This document shows positions 4,840-12,797 of a stretch of DNA of 34,897 bases, in pieces. Location: IMG/VR virus record IMGVR_UViG_3300045972_000076, positions 1 through 34,897 of that record; one strand, 5' to 3'. Origin of the DNA: a virus. How positions within the stretch are numbered: the stretch's first letter is position 1; each line of letters opens with the position of its first letter. A model generated the notes under the pieces. The model saw nothing but the letters and a program-made list of their open reading frames with translations. It was not told the origin of the DNA and did not search any database. The position numbers and the translations under genes are program-made.

Positions 4840-4898
4840 ATGACGCCTGTAAAACAGGTGGTAAAAAGGGTAAGAGTGGCGGGGGTAAAAAGAAGTGA
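4821..4898 (+). other. Open -1 frame extension encoding a Gly/Lys-rich tail
   Basis: In the -1 frame relative to the Cys-rich gene, codons from 4821 read WFTVLLNDACKTGGKKGKSG and end GGKKK with TGA at 4896-4898. The Cys-Lys-Gly-rich composition looks coded and resembles a natural C-terminal tail of the preceding Cys-rich protein. There is no obvious slippery heptamer at the junction, so a base-level indel or an independent small ORF from GTG 4830 are alternatives. The TGA overlaps the lysozyme GTG. Confidence 0.4.
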
Positions 4899-5344
4899 AC
4901 CTCGCTTTACTTCGTGAAGAACTGTTGCGATATGAGGGGTGTAAGTATAACGTATACTTAGACTCTTTAGGTCTTAAAACCGCTGGAATTGGGCATCTTT
5001 TAATCGGTGTTGACAGAGACTTTGCAATTGGACAACCTATACCTGCTAATGCTGTAGAAATATGGTTTGCGGCAGATGTAACTCGCTCTACAAATATTGC
5101 AAAATCCTGTATAACTAACTTTGATAAACTCGACGATTGTAGACAAAGAGTATTAACTCAACTTGCATTCAATATGGGTAATAAGTTGCTTGGATTTAAG
5201 AATATGCTTGCTGAAATAGAAAGACAAGACTTTGTAGCAGCAGCAATTGAGTTGCAAAACTCTAAGTGGTTTGGGCAAGTAGGACGCAGAGGAATAGAAA
5301 CTTGTGTCGCATTGCAAACCGGTGCTTATAACTGGCGAAAATAG
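4895..5344 (+). CDS. Endolysin, T4-type lysozyme (GH24 muramidase)
   Basis: The protein has 149 residues and cuts the beta-1,4 bond between MurNAc and GlcNAc in peptidoglycan. The catalytic layout of T4 lysozyme is present: Glu14 in RYEGC, Asp23 in YLDSLG and Thr29 in KTAGIGHLL, with the same 9- and 6-residue spacings as E11/D20/T26. The C-terminal part also matches (LAFNMGNKLLGFKNML, then NSKWFGQVGRR). The start is GTG 4895, overlapping the preceding stop (GTGA), with a G-rich ribosome site at about 4877-4884. There is no signal peptide or SAR segment, so it should depend on the holin for export. It is the last + strand gene before a hairpin and the early promoter region. Confidence 0.93.
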   Translation: MNLALLREELLRYEGCKYNVYLDSLGLKTAGIGHLLIGVDRDFAIGQPIPANAVEIWFAADVTRSTNIAKSCITNFDKLDDCRQRVLTQLAFNMGNKLLGFKNMLAEIERQDFVAAAIELQNSKWFGQVGRRGIETCVALQTGAYNWRK

Positions 5345-5874: not shown

Positions 5875-6576
5875 ATGGAAAATATTTACACCTTATATTT
5901 TGGCGATAACGAATGCAAAGCGGTATTCTATGTAGGTCATACAGGTGATCCAAAGCGTAGATTAAGCGATCATAAGCGTGATTCAAAAACTGGTACGGAA
6001 GACAAGTACCGCTACATCCAACAAGAACTTGTACCAGCAGGTATAGATTGGGGTATGGAAGTTATTAAAGAAATACCCGCAGGCGAATACCCGGATGATT
6101 ACGAGCGTCACTATGTGATTAAGTATATTTTAGCTGGTCATCCTATTCAGAATATGAAGCACGGCGATTTAAGTAAGAAGCAGGAATTAGCAGAGCAACT
6201 TGCAGATGATAGAGTTCGTACAGTAGAAGAAGTTCGTGCAGATCGAGTTAGACGAGCAAGCATTATTGCTGCTAAAAATTTAGAGAGAGCAGCAAAGTTT
6301 CGTATGAAAGTCGAAGCCGAAGATCGTGCCAAACAAGAGCGTGCTGCTTGGGAGTCAAAAATAGAGCACATACGCCAAAAGCAAATCGAGTTTGAAAAAG
6401 GGCACGAGATGCGTCAACAAGAAATTCGCGCATACAAGCTTGTTAAAGAAAGAGAAGCTGCTGAAAAGTTAGCACTTAAAAAGATTCTCGAAGATAAGCG
6501 TAATATGGAACTTGCCGAGTTACGTAAAGAACAAGAGCGTAAATGGAGAGAAGATAATGATCGTAACTCTCTTTAA
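5875..6576 (+). CDS. GIY-YIG nuclease-domain protein with long charged helical tail
   Basis: The protein has 233 residues. The N-terminal about 85 residues form a GIY-YIG-like nuclease core: IYTLYF, then VFYVGHTGDPKRRLSDH with the conserved Gly and Arg, and a later Glu-rich strand region. The remaining 130 residues are mostly Arg, Lys, Glu and Ala in a long predicted helix or coiled coil (about residues 95-230). I chose ATG 5875, which has GGGAG about 11 bases upstream; an in-frame TTG at 5857 gives six extra residues but has no ribosome site. It is first in the early operon. GIY-YIG proteins cut or nick DNA in homing, repair or host DNA breakdown; which applies here is not clear. The 3' end overlaps the next gene by 20 bases. 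Confidence 0.7.
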   Translation: MENIYTLYFGDNECKAVFYVGHTGDPKRRLSDHKRDSKTGTEDKYRYIQQELVPAGIDWGMEVIKEIPAGEYPDDYERHYVIKYILAGHPIQNMKHGDLSKKQELAEQLADDRVRTVEEVRADRVRRASIIAAKNLERAAKFRMKVEAEDRAKQERAAWESKIEHIRQKQIEFEKGHEMRQQEIRAYKLVKEREAAEKLALKKILEDKRNMELAELRKEQERKWREDNDRNSL

Positions 6577-7579
6577 ATCAGTACAAAAAGCATACACCAC
6601 TAAAGATTGGATTATTGACGCCGATTGGCCTACCATTGCAACTTTCTTAACTACATTTAATCAATGCAGTAAGAAGGAAGATATGCAATTATTTAATCTA
6701 TGGCAATTTGATGTAAACGGCGAACCTGGCAGGAGACGAATATATGAGAACGGCGTGGCAACGGAAAATTATGAAACGATTCCGAATACTATTCAGCGGA
6801 GTAAAAAGAATGCACAGGCTTGTTGGGGACTCGTCCTCGACTATGACGGAGAAGCAAGGATTGATGAAACCATTGCGGATCTTACTAGGATTGGATGTGC
6901 GTTTGCGATTTACACAACATTTAGGCACACGGAAGAGACGCACAAATATCGTATTGTTCTCCCTTTCCGAAGTGCCGCCACGCCTAACCAACTTAAAAAG
7001 AAAGAAGCTTCGATATCAGAAACATTCCAAAAGGTAGATCACGCAAGTTTTAGTCAATCACAAAGTTTTTACTTACATAGTGGACCGTGTCCGTTAGTTG
7101 CATACTCTGCTATTTTTGACGGAGAGTTTTTAGATGTTGATTGGTTTGAAGACGAACCTGAAGTAGAGATTGAAAAGCGCGAAATGCCTAAAAGTGAATT
7201 TACAGGTGATCGCAATGTTTATAAAGAAATGTTGATTGATAGCTTGGCTACCTGTAGTGGTTTGCATTATGCTAACGAGGCAAGTAAACACGGTGTGTTA
7301 ACTTTAGTTGCTTTATGTAAAAGTGCAGACTTCACGTTTGCTGAATTTGATACGATTTGCCAAAATATGGCTGATCCAACAAGTAGTTTACAAAATCCAA
7401 ACTTAAGAAAATCAGCGTGGTACGGATGGACACCTTTTAGCGGTATAACTGCTAAGGTTAGAGAGGAGTTTATAAGTGCTTATGGCGGCACGAGTAAGTT
7501 TGGTATCAATGGTGATACCTTATCTAGAAGAGTAAAAATGTTAAAAGAGAAACTAAAGAAAAGGAGTTACAATGACTGA
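6557..7579 (+). CDS. Primase-like protein (AEP/PrimPol-type core likely)
   Basis: The protein has 340 residues from ATG 6557, with GGAGAG six bases upstream. The core has a Gly-Leu-Val-Leu-Asp-Tyr-Asp segment (Asp95 and Asp97) followed by FAIYTTFRHTEETHKYRIVLPF (about 116-137). This spacing is characteristic of the D-x-D and Arg/His strand motifs of small archaeo-eukaryotic primase-type replication proteins. The C-terminal about 130 residues are helical and may be a linker to the helicase. It lies directly before an SF3/DUF5906-type helicase, the usual partner, so together they probably prime and unwind phage DNA. I do not see a zinc finger. Catalytic activity is inferred from motif and neighbour, not shown. 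Confidence 0.65.
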   Translation: MIVTLFKSVQKAYTTKDWIIDADWPTIATFLTTFNQCSKKEDMQLFNLWQFDVNGEPGRRRIYENGVATENYETIPNTIQRSKKNAQACWGLVLDYDGEARIDETIADLTRIGCAFAIYTTFRHTEETHKYRIVLPFRSAATPNQLKKKEASISETFQKVDHASFSQSQSFYLHSGPCPLVAYSAIFDGEFLDVDWFEDEPEVEIEKREMPKSEFTGDRNVYKEMLIDSLATCSGLHYANEASKHGVLTLVALCKSADFTFAEFDTICQNMADPTSSLQNPNLRKSAWYGWTPFSGITAKVREEFISAYGGTSKFGINGDTLSRRVKMLKEKLKKRSYND

Positions 7580-7757
7580 GTTTGAAGAAAGATTATTGGG
7601 TATTTTAGGTAATATCTCTGATGAATTGAATAATATTGGCGGCCAATTAAGTAATATTAATACTGCGGTTGAAGGTATCGAGCTTAAAACTATGCACGAT
7701 GCATATGGCTTAGGTGATGTATGCAACCGATTAGACGAAATAGTAGGGAAATTATAA
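7572..7757 (+). CDS. Small acidic coiled-coil protein between primase and helicase
   Basis: The protein has 61 residues. AAAGGAG lies well placed before ATG 7572, and the gene overlaps the primase stop by eight bases. The sequence is a single amphipathic, heptad-like run (LGILGNISDELNNIGGQLSN) with few aromatic residues, suggesting a small oligomerising helix. It is sandwiched between primase and helicase with one base before the next ATG, so it is probably co-expressed with them. I recognise no family; a bridging or regulatory role is speculation. Confidence 0.6.
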   Translation: MTEFEERLLGILGNISDELNNIGGQLSNINTAVEGIELKTMHDAYGLGDVCNRLDEIVGKL

Positions 7758-7758
7758 A

Positions 7759-9531
7759 ATGTTAGATAAGTTAAAAAAGGGTGTAGATTTAGCAAAAATC
7801 GAAGAACAAAGCGCGGTTAAAAAATTACAAATTAACCCAACAGCCGATAATTCACTATTAGTCGAAGAAGCACGCAGGAATGTTGAGATTGCAAAATTAG
7901 CATACGAAGATGAAAAGAAGCGTGCAGCCGACGAAGAGAGTGAGCGTCGAGCCGGCGAGAAGGAAGAGTTAACCGAATTACAAAAGTATGAAAAGTATTG
8001 CGATGCTCGTGATATGTATAAAGAATATAATTTTGGATTCTTAAGGCGTAGCGGTGAATTCTTTATTACAAAAGTGTTTTGCGATAAAGATAAAAACGAT
8101 CCCGAACTAGAGCGTTATACAACTGAGTTAGAAAACTATAACTATCCGCTTCTTAGTAAGGCGTTTATTGAGTTAAATCATAAAGTAGCAATTGGGTTTT
8201 TAAGAAAGATGGTTGAAGGTAAACCATTTAAAGTTAAAAATGCTGAAGGTGTTTACGAAGAGTGGATAGGTCCACGAAGGATCTATCATAAACTTGTTAA
8301 TACAATACATATACCGGATGCTGATACTTATAATATCATTGATCTATCTAAAACTATAAAACCGAATGCTAAAGAAGATGTATGCCCGTGGGTACTAAAA
8401 AGTCTATTTAATTCGTTAGGTGCGGGCAAAACGGAAAACATCGAGTATGTTGAAAAATGGTTATACTCGGTAGCAGTAGCCGATATCGGCAATAATCAAA
8501 CACCGTTTCCTGTATTTTATGGTAAAGGTAAAGTTGGTAAAAATGCATTAATGGAACTTGTAATACCTGCAATACTTGGTAAAGAACTTACTTTTAGTGG
8601 TGTGTGGGATGTTATTGGCGAAAGCGGATTTACACAATTTAAATTGGGCAAGGTTGTAATGTTTATCGATGAAATACCGGAGCGCAGTGAATGGACTAAA
8701 ATTAAGAATTGGACGGGTAGTGTAACTGAGTATATTAAGATTAAGTATGGTCCCGAATATAGTATTGATAATGTTATTGCATTAGCATTTGGTAGTAACG
8801 AAGCTAATTTTCCACTTCCGTTTGAGGATGGTGAACAAATGCAACGTGTGAGCCCGCTTAAAGCAGGTAATAAAACTTTTGCTGAATATGTAGTTGAGAA
8901 TGCAAATATAATAGTAGGTGCAGACGAATTTAAACAACTTGTAAAAGATAAGATTGGTTATGTGCCGGATACACCGCATATGTTAGGCGATAAGTTTTTG
9001 CGTAATTTTAAGCCGCTTTGGTTAGGCAAGGATGAAATTCAACAGCTTGTAAACTATTTGCATACCAAGTATAGCCCGGGCGAAGATAAGAGGTTTGTAC
9101 TAACACCTTTACGCGGTGAAGATTGGGAAGAACTTGTTGCAAGCAAAACTGATTTGGTTAAAAAGTCGTTAGTGTGGGCTCAGGAAAAGAACACAGAGTA
9201 TCTAATTCCACACGAGTTGTATCGCGTATACGAGCATATGAATAAGAGCATTGGTAAGAAGATGTATAAAGGGCCGGATGCGTATTTTAAGCAATTAGCC
9301 GAATTACTTAAGGAACAAAATTGGGTAAAGAATCCACAATGTTTTGTAAATTATACAAATACGACGCATCAATTTTATACAGATCAAGGCGAAAAGAAGT
9401 CATCAACTAAAAGTGTTGTATATTTTGTAAACGAGGATGCCAAAAAAGGTAAAGTTGACAGCCTATTAGAGACTTACTTTAAGCGTGTGTTAGTTAATCT
9501 TAAGGAAGAATTAATTTTAAACGATGAGTGA
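7759..9531 (+). CDS. Replicative helicase, SF3/DUF5906-type (primase-helicase partner)
   Basis: The protein has 590 residues. A Walker A motif is seen as YGKGKVGKNA (residues about 254-263), a Walker B as VVMFIDEIPE (about 299-308), and a sensor-like Asn in AFGSNEANF (about 345). This order and the family-like GKxxxGK(N/S) loop match phage D5-N/DUF5906 superfamily 3 helicases. The first 120 residues are charged and helical; the C-terminal 130 residues look like a winged-helix DNA-binding region. Such hexameric ATPases unwind DNA at an origin. A striking inverted array of 9-base repeats begins three bases after its stop codon and is a candidate binding site. There is no phage DNA polymerase in the window, so host polymerase is presumably recruited. 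Confidence 0.85.
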   Translation: MLDKLKKGVDLAKIEEQSAVKKLQINPTADNSLLVEEARRNVEIAKLAYEDEKKRAADEESERRAGEKEELTELQKYEKYCDARDMYKEYNFGFLRRSGEFFITKVFCDKDKNDPELERYTTELENYNYPLLSKAFIELNHKVAIGFLRKMVEGKPFKVKNAEGVYEEWIGPRRIYHKLVNTIHIPDADTYNIIDLSKTIKPNAKEDVCPWVLKSLFNSLGAGKTENIEYVEKWLYSVAVADIGNNQTPFPVFYGKGKVGKNALMELVIPAILGKELTFSGVWDVIGESGFTQFKLGKVVMFIDEIPERSEWTKIKNWTGSVTEYIKIKYGPEYSIDNVIALAFGSNEANFPLPFEDGEQMQRVSPLKAGNKTFAEYVVENANIIVGADEFKQLVKDKIGYVPDTPHMLGDKFLRNFKPLWLGKDEIQQLVNYLHTKYSPGEDKRFVLTPLRGEDWEELVASKTDLVKKSLVWAQEKNTEYLIPHELYRVYEHMNKSIGKKMYKGPDAYFKQLAELLKEQNWVKNPQCFVNYTNTTHQFYTDQGEKKSSTKSVVYFVNEDAKKGKVDSLLETYFKRVLVNLKEELILNDE

Positions 9532-9533
9532 AA

Positions 9534-9669
9534 TTACGAGGGTTACGGGGGTTACGACGGTGTTTTGTGCTAAAACTAGAGTAACGATTTTAGTGAGAGC
9601 GAGAGATGGCTAGATCACCGAAGTTCAAAAACCGCTAAAACACCGTCGTAACCGTCGTAACCGTCGTAA
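9534..9669. repeat. Large inverted array of 9-bp repeats, candidate replication origin
   Basis: The left arm (9534-9566) holds three tandem copies of TTACGNNGG followed by TGTTTT. The right arm (9637-9669) holds AAAACA followed by three perfect copies of CCGTCGTAA. The arms are inverse complements over 33 bases with three mismatches; the inner 16 bases (9551-9566 with 9637-9652) pair perfectly. The 70-base centre contains a smaller CTAAAA/TTTTAG dyad (9570-9593). There is no gene in 9532-9704. Iteron-like repeats beside a replicative helicase gene suggest an origin or operator; an RNA role is an alternative. Confidence 0.8.
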
Positions 9670-9704
9670 AAGATTAAGATAGAAAACTTATTAAAGGATA
9701 AAAT

Positions 9705-9914
9705 ATGCCAAAATTAAGTAGAATAGAATTAGAATCTTTATGTACTAGACTTAAACCAAAGTTTAGTGATAATAGTCTTACAGAGGAAGAAAGAACGTGG
9801 GCAAAACTACGTGGAGTAAGTGAGCAACATTTTCAAACAGAAAAGTTGTTAGAAAGATTAGGATTTGGAAGTTTACATCAACCGCCCAAAGAAGATAAAA
9901 GGGATTTAATATGA
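9705..9914 (+). CDS. Small hypothetical protein
   Basis: The protein has 69 residues, starting at ATG 9705 with AAAGGA eight bases upstream. It is basic and acidic in alternating helices (RIELESLCTRLKPKFSDNSL), with no membrane span or signal. Its end overlaps the next start by four bases (ATGA). It is the first gene after the repeat array, and so could be controlled by it. I recognise no family. Confidence 0.65.
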   Translation: MPKLSRIELESLCTRLKPKFSDNSLTEEERTWAKLRGVSEQHFQTEKLLERLGFGSLHQPPKEDKRDLI

Positions 9915-10252
9915 AAAGAAGAAATAGAGATTCTATAGTTAAAGAATTGTACTACGGTAGTGGTTGCCCATATAATCCGAAACATATCATCGAAGGTGAA
10001 ACTTTACGTGTTAGGCGTGGAGGCGGTTGTATTAGATGCACTACTACAAAATATAGTGAGATGACAAATAGTGAGATTGAAGAAACTTATGTGAAACGTA
10101 TGAAGTATATTGATCACGCAGATAAAAGCGCCGAGGCTAAAAGACTTAGGAAAATAGAGACATCACGTATCTACAATGAAACTCATAGAGAAGAATTAGC
10201 AGCCTATTATAGAAATAAAAGATTAAAGGAGAAAGACAATGGAACTAAATGA
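9911..10252 (+). CDS. Cys-containing, endonuclease VII-like or zinc-finger small protein
   Basis: The protein has 113 residues. Near the N-terminus are YYGSGCPYNPKHIIEGETLR and then RRGGGCIRCTTTK, a pattern like the Cys/His zinc-binding half of phage proteins related to recombination endonuclease VII. The rest is a long basic helix with Arg/Glu/Tyr repeats (YNETHREELAAYYRNKRLKE) also seen in those proteins. One expected cysteine or histidine position is uncertain, so metal binding is not assured. It overlaps both neighbours, in the early operon. A DNA-binding or DNA-cutting role is probable by family resemblance only. Confidence 0.55.
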   Translation: MKRRNRDSIVKELYYGSGCPYNPKHIIEGETLRVRRGGGCIRCTTTKYSEMTNSEIEETYVKRMKYIDHADKSAEAKRLRKIETSRIYNETHREELAAYYRNKRLKEKDNGTK

Positions 10253-10412
10253 AGCCGATTACCTTAAAAGAACTAACGATATGTTTGAAGCAGTATGGAA
10301 TGCATTAAACAAAGAAGAAAAAGAACAAGTCGATAAAGATATTTTAGATAGAATAGATAGAATAAACAAACTAAAGAATACAGGAGACCGCAAAGGTAAG
10401 GAGACAGAATGA
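10239..10412 (+). CDS. Very small charged protein, 57 residues
   Basis: ATG 10239 has AAAGGAG eight bases upstream. The gene overlaps the upstream stop by 14 bases and its TGA overlaps the next start as ATGA. The sequence is strongly acidic and basic (ADYLKRTNDMFEAVWNALNK), predicting one or two helices, with a Lys/Asp-rich tail. Good ribosome site and overlaps on both sides support it as real. No family is recognised. Confidence 0.65.
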   Translation: MELNEADYLKRTNDMFEAVWNALNKEEKEQVDKDILDRIDRINKLKNTGDRKGKETE

Positions 10413-10723
10413 ACTACAACGATGCGCCACCTAAGATTAAAGAAAGAATTAGCGAAGCATTCTGTTTTCATAAACTACAGGACTCTTTAAATATGTATTT
10501 TCGCAGTTCTAATTCACGTGATCCCGCATATCGCAACTGGATGATACTTCACAGAGATGTAGATTTAAGTTTTGGTTCACTACAAGAGCAATTAAAGTCA
10601 GTAGAAGCAGAAACTCGCCTCGAAACATTAGAAGAATTTGGCGATAGGTGGATTAGAGATAAACTTTGGCAGTCAGAAGACCGCAAACAAAATAAAAACA
10701 AGGAGAAAACAAATGTTGAATAA
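10409..10723 (+). CDS. Hypothetical early protein
   Basis: The protein has 104 residues. GTAAGGAG precedes ATG 10409, and the start overlaps the previous TGA. The product is polar and helical, with Trp/Arg-rich stretches (SRDPAYRNWMILHRDVDLSF) and a Lys-rich end. There is no membrane span, signal or recognisable catalytic motif. It sits in the run of small overlapping early genes whose products commonly act on host processes; nothing in the sequence says which. Confidence 0.65.
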   Translation: MNYNDAPPKIKERISEAFCFHKLQDSLNMYFRSSNSRDPAYRNWMILHRDVDLSFGSLQEQLKSVEAETRLETLEEFGDRWIRDKLWQSEDRKQNKNKEKTNVE

Positions 10724-10901
10724 GCAAGGTGGAGAAAGCGATGGAGGCAAAGGTGATGGGACTCGCCCAACTAATAAACAACTCTATGATGAAAACTACG
10801 ATAAGATATTTGGGAAGAAAAAAATGCCCCTAGAATCTTTATCAACGGAGTCACAAGGGGCAAGTAACCTAGGAGAAATTGAACAAGGAACTAGGTCGTA
10901 A
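10713..10901 (+). CDS. Small polar protein, gene overlaps a - strand terminator
   Basis: The protein has 62 residues from ATG 10713, preceded by AAGGAG eight bases upstream and overlapping the previous stop. An in-frame TTG at 10638 lies deep in the upstream gene and has no ribosome site. The protein is low in hydrophobics: a Gly/Lys/Asp-rich start (GGESDGGKGDG), then DENYDKIFGKKK and a Ser/Glu-rich tail. It is probably largely disordered. Its coding sequence contains an A7 tract and a hairpin that form a good terminator on the opposite strand. Function unknown. Confidence 0.55.
   Translation: MLNKQGGESDGGKGDGTRPTNKQLYDENYDKIFGKKKMPLESLSTESQGASNLGEIEQGTRS
10818..10862 (-). terminator. Rho-independent terminator on the - strand, inside a + strand gene
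   Basis: On the - strand, TGCCCCT (10862-10856) pairs with AGGGGCA (10831-10825) around a 24-base loop and is followed by seven U residues (10824-10818). It shares GCCCCTTGT with the - strand terminator at 4285-4256. No - strand protein gene is seen upstream. Confidence 0.45.
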
Positions 10902-10950
10902 TATTTAGTAAATTCTTACGGTAAATATGTTAAACTAACTGGAGTGTAAA

Positions 10951-11259
10951 ATGCCTACTAAAGGTTATACTTGGAATGACGAATACCGTAAGAAGTTCTA
11001 TGAATCCGATAAGGTAAAGGATCACTTAGAGAAATTCATAGAACAAGCATCTAAGCCAAAGACTGAGCAACAGAAAGCCAAGATGTCTGCCGCTAAATTA
11101 GGTAGAAAGTTTTCAGATGAGCATAAACAAAATATGAGCGAGGCTCAAAAGTTTCGTAATGCTTTAAGAAAAGAAATATTAGAACAAGAGCCACAACTTG
11201 CAAAGAGCGAAGTGTGGATTAAAGTAAGAGAGATTAAAGAGAATGATAGAACTATATAA
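10951..11259 (+). CDS. NUMOD3-motif DNA-binding protein, homing-nuclease associated
   Basis: The protein has 102 residues. The central region reads KAKMSAAKLGRKFSDEHKQN followed by MSEAQKFR, the Ser/Gly/Lys pattern of NUMOD3, a short DNA-binding helix module usually joined to GIY-YIG or HNH homing nucleases. No nuclease domain is present, so it may be a remnant or a stand-alone binder. TGGAG precedes ATG 10951. A 49-base gap upstream is AT-rich and could hold a promoter in either direction. It overlaps the next gene by 17 bases. Confidence 0.6.
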   Translation: MPTKGYTWNDEYRKKFYESDKVKDHLEKFIEQASKPKTEQQKAKMSAAKLGRKFSDEHKQNMSEAQKFRNALRKEILEQEPQLAKSEVWIKVREIKENDRTI

Positions 11260-11501: not shown

Positions 11502-12797
11502 ATGAATACAAATCAAAATATCACTGCGGGTGATAACTTCACCCTACATCTCGGCGACAACCTCGCAACACTTAAAAACTATCCAGCAGACACATTCGAC
11601 TCTATCGTCACTGATCCGCCATATGGCATTGACTTCTTAGGTAAGGAGTGGGATACACATACTGGCACCGTGGAACTTTACAAAGAATGCTTACGAGTAT
11701 TAAAGCCGGGTGGATACTTACTTGCGTTTAGTGCAGCACGAACATATCACAAACTTGCTTATTCAGTTGAGTTAGCAGGATTTGAGATACGCGATCAACT
11801 AATGTGGCTTTACAGCAGTGGCTTTCCTAAAGCACAAGACATTGGTAAGGCTATTGATAAACGTGGTAACGATGGCAGCGAATGGGAAGGATACAAGACC
11901 GCACTCAAACCTGCACATGAGCCAATCGTTATGGCACGTAAGCCATACAAAGGTAGCACGATAGATCAAGTATTAAAGAACGGTTTGGGTGCTTTGAATA
12001 TTGATGCTACGAGAGTGCCGTGGGCGGATGCAAAGGATGTAGAAACTCATGTAAAGTGGACTGAAGCATATCTGGAAGCAGGTCGCGGTGAAACAAAGTA
12101 TGACAACTATTTTGCTGCCGAAGGTCAAAATAGAGAAAGCGAAGCCAAAGAGTTATTGAAGAAAAAGAAGAGTGATAGACCAAAGCCGCAACCACTTAAT
12201 GGTAACGGTGGCGTAATATTCCAAGGCACAGATTATGTTCCAGCAGCCGATGACGCAGAGATGAGTGTAGTAAGTGACGCCGGTCGCTATCCATCAAATG
12301 TCATCGGTGAAGTTGCTGAAGGTTATCAGAAGTATTTCTACTGCCCAAAGGTTAGCAGGAAAGAGCGGCATGTGGGGTTTACTGAACTGCCACCAGCAAC
12401 TACAAGTGGTATGTTAGGAACAGATGGTGATTGGAAGAACAATGATTCACTTACAGAGGGTGGCAAAAACAACCGCAGTTCAATCGGTAACAACCACCCA
12501 ACAGTTAAGCCAGTGGCACTTATGGAATATCTAATCAAATTAGTAACACCACCATCGACACCCACATTACAGCGTAAGGTCTTAGACCCATTTATGGGAA
12601 GCGGAAGTACTGGTATGGCAGCAGTCAAATTAGGACACCACTTTACCGGATGCGAGTTAGATCCAAAGTATGTCGCAATAGCATCCACACGCATTGAAGC
12701 GTGGCAAGTAAAGGATATCGATGAAGAACACGATATTGATCCCGATAACCCCGATGAAGATCTACCTATTAATACTTTGTTCACAGTTAGTGCGTGA
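11502..12797 (+). CDS. DNA methyltransferase, amino-group type (N6-adenine or N4-cytosine), beta-class order
   Basis: The protein has 431 residues and transfers a methyl group from S-adenosylmethionine to an exocyclic amine in DNA. The catalytic DPPY motif is near the N-terminus (SIVTDPPYGIDFLGKEWD, about 34-51). The AdoMet-binding motif is near the C-terminus (VLDPFMGSGSTGMAAVKLG, about 362-380), followed by FTGCELDPKYV. This order marks the beta class. A roughly 110-residue insert (about 170-280) may be the target-recognition domain. No restriction partner is seen, so it probably protects phage DNA or alters promoters. A ribosome-site hairpin lies just upstream. The stop overlaps a GATAAATA motif. 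Confidence 0.92.
   Translation: MNTNQNITAGDNFTLHLGDNLATLKNYPADTFDSIVTDPPYGIDFLGKEWDTHTGTVELYKECLRVLKPGGYLLAFSAARTYHKLAYSVELAGFEIRDQLMWLYSSGFPKAQDIGKAIDKRGNDGSEWEGYKTALKPAHEPIVMARKPYKGSTIDQVLKNGLGALNIDATRVPWADAKDVETHVKWTEAYLEAGRGETKYDNYFAAEGQNRESEAKELLKKKKSDRPKPQPLNGNGGVIFQGTDYVPAADDAEMSVVSDAGRYPSNVIGEVAEGYQKYFYCPKVSRKERHVGFTELPPATTSGMLGTDGDWKNNDSLTEGGKNNRSSIGNNHPTVKPVALMEYLIKLVTPPSTPTLQRKVLDPFMGSGSTGMAAVKLGHHFTGCELDPKYVAIASTRIEAWQVKDIDEEHDIDPDNPDEDLPINTLFTVSA

Follow-up and report, generated by a model that had tools for sequence, protein, structure and literature searches.

The inverted repeat that follows the helicase gene of this phage is very probably a replication origin, or a cis site at which the initiator is loaded, that would be bound by the product of the adjacent helicase gene. 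We favor this reading because annotated or published origins have this anatomy too, as do sites beside D5-type genes in unrelated loci. The window (the whole stretch of DNA analysed) corresponds to a virus record 34,897 bp long, and the features needed to follow the argument are these:

6512..7579, + strand: primase-like gene belonging to this replication module (matches to PHROG families of DNA primase/helicase at E 1e-7 to 7e-6; syntenic homologue in the relative L010)
7759..9531, + strand: gene for a D5-type helicase (DUF5906, SF3 AAA+) that presumably acts as initiator (residues 253-360 match Pfam PF19263, E=2.2e-8; weak PHROG primase/helicase match)
9534..9560, + strand: left iteron array, units TTACGAGGG TTACGGGGG TTACGACGG, consensus GGTTACGNN, reading inward
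9561..9566, + strand: inner extension of the left arm, TGTTTT, pairing with 9637-9642
9567..9636, no strand: spacer of 70 bp, 43% GC, not AT-rich, without a long purine-pyrimidine tract
9637..9642, - strand: inner extension of the right arm, AAAACA
9643..9669, - strand: right iteron array of three inverted CCGTCGTAA units, all perfect
9670..9739, no strand: 70 bp with the lowest stability in the window by nearest-neighbour energy (lowest 0.03% of windows), candidate unwinding region

The initial annotation had described an inverted triple array of 9-base repeats directly after a helicase gene, with all three right-hand units perfect, and our analysis confirmed both points. Six 9-bp units are present, three TTACGNNGG at 9534-9560 and three inverted at 9643-9669; those on the right are mutually identical (ACCGTCGTAA three times), and these six are the only occurrences of TTACGNNGG in the window. 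The arms (9534-9566 and 9637-9669) measure 33 nt each, lie 70 nt apart and are 91% complementary, with three mismatches. All three mismatches fall at the NN positions of TTACGNNGG (chance 0.004), as expected if the conserved thing is the 7-bp core GGTTACG. The smaller dyad that had been noticed in the centre (CTAAAAC/GATTTTAG) is visible in the predicted fold, and is weak. When the whole window was scanned for inverted repeats within 300 bp, none was as long or as good as this element. The whole window was also dinucleotide-shuffled 60 times; the best shuffle scored 15, as compared to 24 for the real element, and 0/60 yielded an inverted repeat with periodic arms.

The array begins 2 nt past the helicase stop, between the end of the helicase ORF (9531) and the next gene (from 9705), and no ORF of at least 50 aa covers the element. 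A 29-codon ORF (9524-9613, MSEITRVTGVTTVF...), whose ATG overlaps the helicase stop, reads the left array as a VTT-type repeat; a clear ribosome site was not seen for it. A mobile repeat (MITE) was ruled out, as there is one copy in the record and the unit varies between genomes. A nucleotide search of known phages with the region gave chance matches only.

An inverted repeat of this kind could instead act as RNA: the helicase mRNA would have a long hairpin at its 3' end, either protecting the message or terminating transcription. The predicted fold is indeed strong (-64.6 kcal/mol, z -8.2), but any long inverted repeat gives a low energy, and we consider this explanation quite improbable. After 9669 comes AAGATTAAGAT, with no T-run and no terminator call, and an Rfam match is absent from the window. 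The restriction of the arm mismatches to non-conserved NN positions also speaks against a role at the RNA level, as do arrays in other genomes. At locus L057, each of the three units has a T/A difference between the arms, one arm reading GGTTACG and the other GGTAACG, so that the hairpin pairing is broken while the GGTNACG site is kept, and several other arrays lie upstream of the helicase gene.

The initial annotation had also proposed a looping operator. On such a reading, a repressor on both arrays would control the genes from 9705 onward. The element does lie in the gap ahead of the next gene, and symmetric arrays can loop, but promoter-like sites in or near the array are not above chance, and in unrelated genomes such arrays associate with D5 helicase genes and not with a regulator. 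Having found no specific support for it, we regard an operator as highly improbable.

The upstream gene had been called a helicase, and it proved to be of the D5 type: its product of 590 aa carries DUF5906, the AAA+ core of D5-type SF3 helicases. The AlphaFold model, from an alignment with five divergent sequences, has a pLDDT of 37, and the DNA-binding domain is putative. A tblastn search with this helicase gave no match among GenBank phages and none in IMG/VR, while an IMG/VR search with the primase alignment returned the contig of L010 again and nothing further. The window encodes terminase, portal, major head, tail and tape-measure proteins, and L010 is its only long close relative, with ~73% DNA identity across the late genes. 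The primase is kept in L010 at 58% identity (L010 2000-8000 as compared to window 6500-11000), together with a different DUF5906 helicase that has two 18-bp direct repeats at its stop. The inverted array is absent from L010, which counts against an origin; judged from the sequence comparison, the two genomes differ by a replication module swap. The window also carries, at 11502-12797, a gene for an N6/N4 DNA methyltransferase whose motifs are separated by a long insertion, the profile match spanning residues 33-394.

The same motif recurs beside D5-type genes in unrelated loci. We searched 2.9 million viral contigs of IMG/VR for inverted GGTTACG arrays 45-105 bp apart, using a pattern blind to genes, and only two contigs (L096 and L097) contained them; a D5_N gene adjoins both. 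In contigs of bacterial genomes, direct-array matches are mostly apparent Gly-Tyr-rich coding repeats and are not evidence alone, and they were followed only where inverted copies were clear (L051, L057 and L025). In L051, the DUF5906 gene stops at 1980 and the array starts from 1987; in L057, the array begins about 5 nt past the DUF5906 gene. The third case, an inverted GGTTACG array in a Terriglobia genome (L025, about 4880-5010), has no D5 helicase beside it; the DUF5906 gene of that genome sits on a separate contig, and L025 counts against an origin. A strict inverted pattern gave 0 matches in 369 genomes, a result usable only as a low background estimate, as its gap range of 50-80 excluded the L051 element. 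Among named phages, iterons of sequence GGTGACGG immediately follow the DUF5906 gene of Escherichia phage vB_EcoM-683R1 and occur there in both orientations, and inverted 9-mers lie 3' of the D5 genes of Mycobacterium phage ZoeJ and Gordonia phage GMA4. Bacterial genomes also yielded long tandem arrays with other 9-bp units, among them GTTGCGTGG and GTTCCGGGG, in L089, L071, L069, L034 and contig-end matches, several of them at contig ends.

The association extends beyond this particular motif. We surveyed 44 DUF5906 loci with their flanks (434 kb), from genomes sampled from two classes, and 40 control regions (432 kb) taken from the same genomes, scanning for inverted repeats with arms of at least 17, a spacer of 20-130 and a tandem period of 8-12 in both arms. 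The scan was designed post hoc, with examples already seen, and it found 24 arrays in 22 of the 44 DUF5906 loci vs none in the 40 controls (Fisher p=2e-8). When proteins were clustered at 40% identity, 15/30 clusters had an array. Four cases call for caution, one being the seed locus (L142) and three overlapping the ORF (L184, L185 and L200); with these excluded, the count is 18/43 (p=1e-6). The iterons are 8-10 bp long, mostly with a period of 9, the spacers are mostly 44-100 bp, and the arrays lie at or near the helicase gene: many 0-25 nt past its stop, others some hundred bp ahead of the helicase gene or at a greater distance downstream. The unit sequence varies by locus (GGTGTCCGG, GGGACTGAA, GGGTGCCGC, GGACCAGAA and others). 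About half of the DUF5906 loci have no array at the scan thresholds, which weighs against the origin reading.

If the element is an origin, a possible sequence of events would be that the C-terminal DNA-binding domain of the helicase binds the iterons, that the two opposed arrays seed two face-to-face hexamers, as reported for SaPI Rep, that these hexamers melt DNA, either within the spacer or at 9670-9739, the very unstable right flank, and that the neighbouring primase then primes synthesis. Binding, melting and initiation at the element are inferred. The spacer has a GC content of 43%, as compared to 39% window-wide, and is more stable than 72% of the window. A non-AT-rich spacer is unlike most family members and weighs against an origin, although an AT-rich centre is common in the class and not universal, L096 and L097 also being without one. 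The segment 9670-9739, which adjoins the right array, may be the melting site; it also contains the RBS and the start of the next gene. GC skew over the window is one-sided, without a switch at 9.5 kb, and was counted against an origin, though it is uninformative. Many other loci have AT-rich spacers, and others have alternating purine-pyrimidine runs. Such Z-DNA-prone tracts, of 12-38 nt, were observed in the spacers of L146, L151, L184, L187, L195-L199, L157 and L211, and they rank in the top 1-2% among same-length windows of their locus.

Taken more broadly, we lean towards the idea that inverted ~9-bp iterons, 44-115 bp apart near the initiator gene, are a general origin design of D5/SF3 primase-helicase replicons (phages, satellites and integrated elements), in which the iteron sequence is free, the spacing and symmetry are kept, and the published "stem-loop" and "iteron" origins form one class. 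As an extra result beyond the known kind, such iterons seem to mark D5-helicase replicons in general. This offers a sequence rule for finding origins in phages known only from metagenomes: inverted 9-mers beside a D5-type helicase gene.

Among known systems, the closest in layout include the origin of Streptococcus thermophilus phage Sfi21 (NC_000872), whose status is a GenBank annotation. It is a 302-bp non-coding origin directly after a Pox_D5/DUF5906 gene, with inverted GTTAC-containing iterons arranged as CTTTAGTTACTTAGTTAC-71 bp-GTAACTAAGTAACTAAAG, and its spacer of 71 bp is close to the 70 bp of the window. The two differ in period (8 in Sfi21, 9 in the window), in units per arm (two and three) and in spacer composition (11% and 43% GC). 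The layout of pRN1, as described in PMC4234260, is also similar: a stem-loop of 100 bp, 3' of the primase/SF3-helicase gene orf904, is necessary for replication, and is sufficient together with the rep operon, its binding motifs being "not yet identified" (PMC4234260). The same paper proposes an origin at a stem-loop of Bordetella phages BPP-1/BIP-1, likewise of ~100 bp and 3' of a primase/SF3-helicase gene. We found that the BPP-1 stem consists of 2+2 inverted nine-mers, TTGCCTCGT twice and its inverse. Unlike in pRN1 and BPP-1, primase and helicase are separate genes in the window.

P4 offers another likeness, and with it another explanation. The type-1 repeats of its crr (GGTGAACA) are 9 bp apart and in both orientations, right after the D5-type alpha gene, and crr is some 4.5 kb distant from the origin annotated in P4. 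The window element could thus be an accessory cis site of the crr type, bound by the helicase for replication or copy control, with synthesis starting elsewhere. We think this unlikely. No second iteron cluster and no further TTACGNNGG were found in the window, a record that may be incomplete, and the element 3' of the gene serves as the origin in Sfi21 and, according to PMC4234260, in pRN1. P4 differs in having a separate ori, two 120-bp copies of crr, and an alpha with a Toprim primase in the same protein.

The origins of PICIs, including SaPIs, resemble the window by their published layout: they lie immediately 3' of the initiator-helicase gene, with two iteron sets around an AT-rich region (PMC6092414), an arrangement that one paper described as unique to PICIs. 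SaPI Rep appears to engage the iterons as two hexamers, and Cch2, which is of the D5 type, uses its C-terminal domain to bind repeats that lie downstream of its gene (PMC7581432). The window spacer is not AT-rich like the PICI centre, and PICIs are small satellites without a full virion gene set, whereas the window, with its terminase, portal, capsid and tail genes, is the genome of a tailed phage.

In conclusion, the symmetrical iteron origin suggested by the initial annotation is the favored reading, its anatomy being shared with Sfi21, the BPP-1 stem-loop, P4 crr and about half of the surveyed DUF5906 loci. As in D5-helicase iteron origins, the element adjoins a gene of the D5_N/DUF5906/Pox_D5 type (the PF19263 gene at 7759-9531) and has two iteron sets, 3+3 inverted 9-mers, around a 70-bp centre; our claim is that it probably works like these origins, the lack of an AT-rich, easily melted centre being the stated difference. 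It belongs to a known kind, together with SaPI/PICI, P4, Sfi21 and pRN1. The element is ordinary in kind and well supported, and is useful as a pointer to a general, testable rule for D5-helicase replicons.
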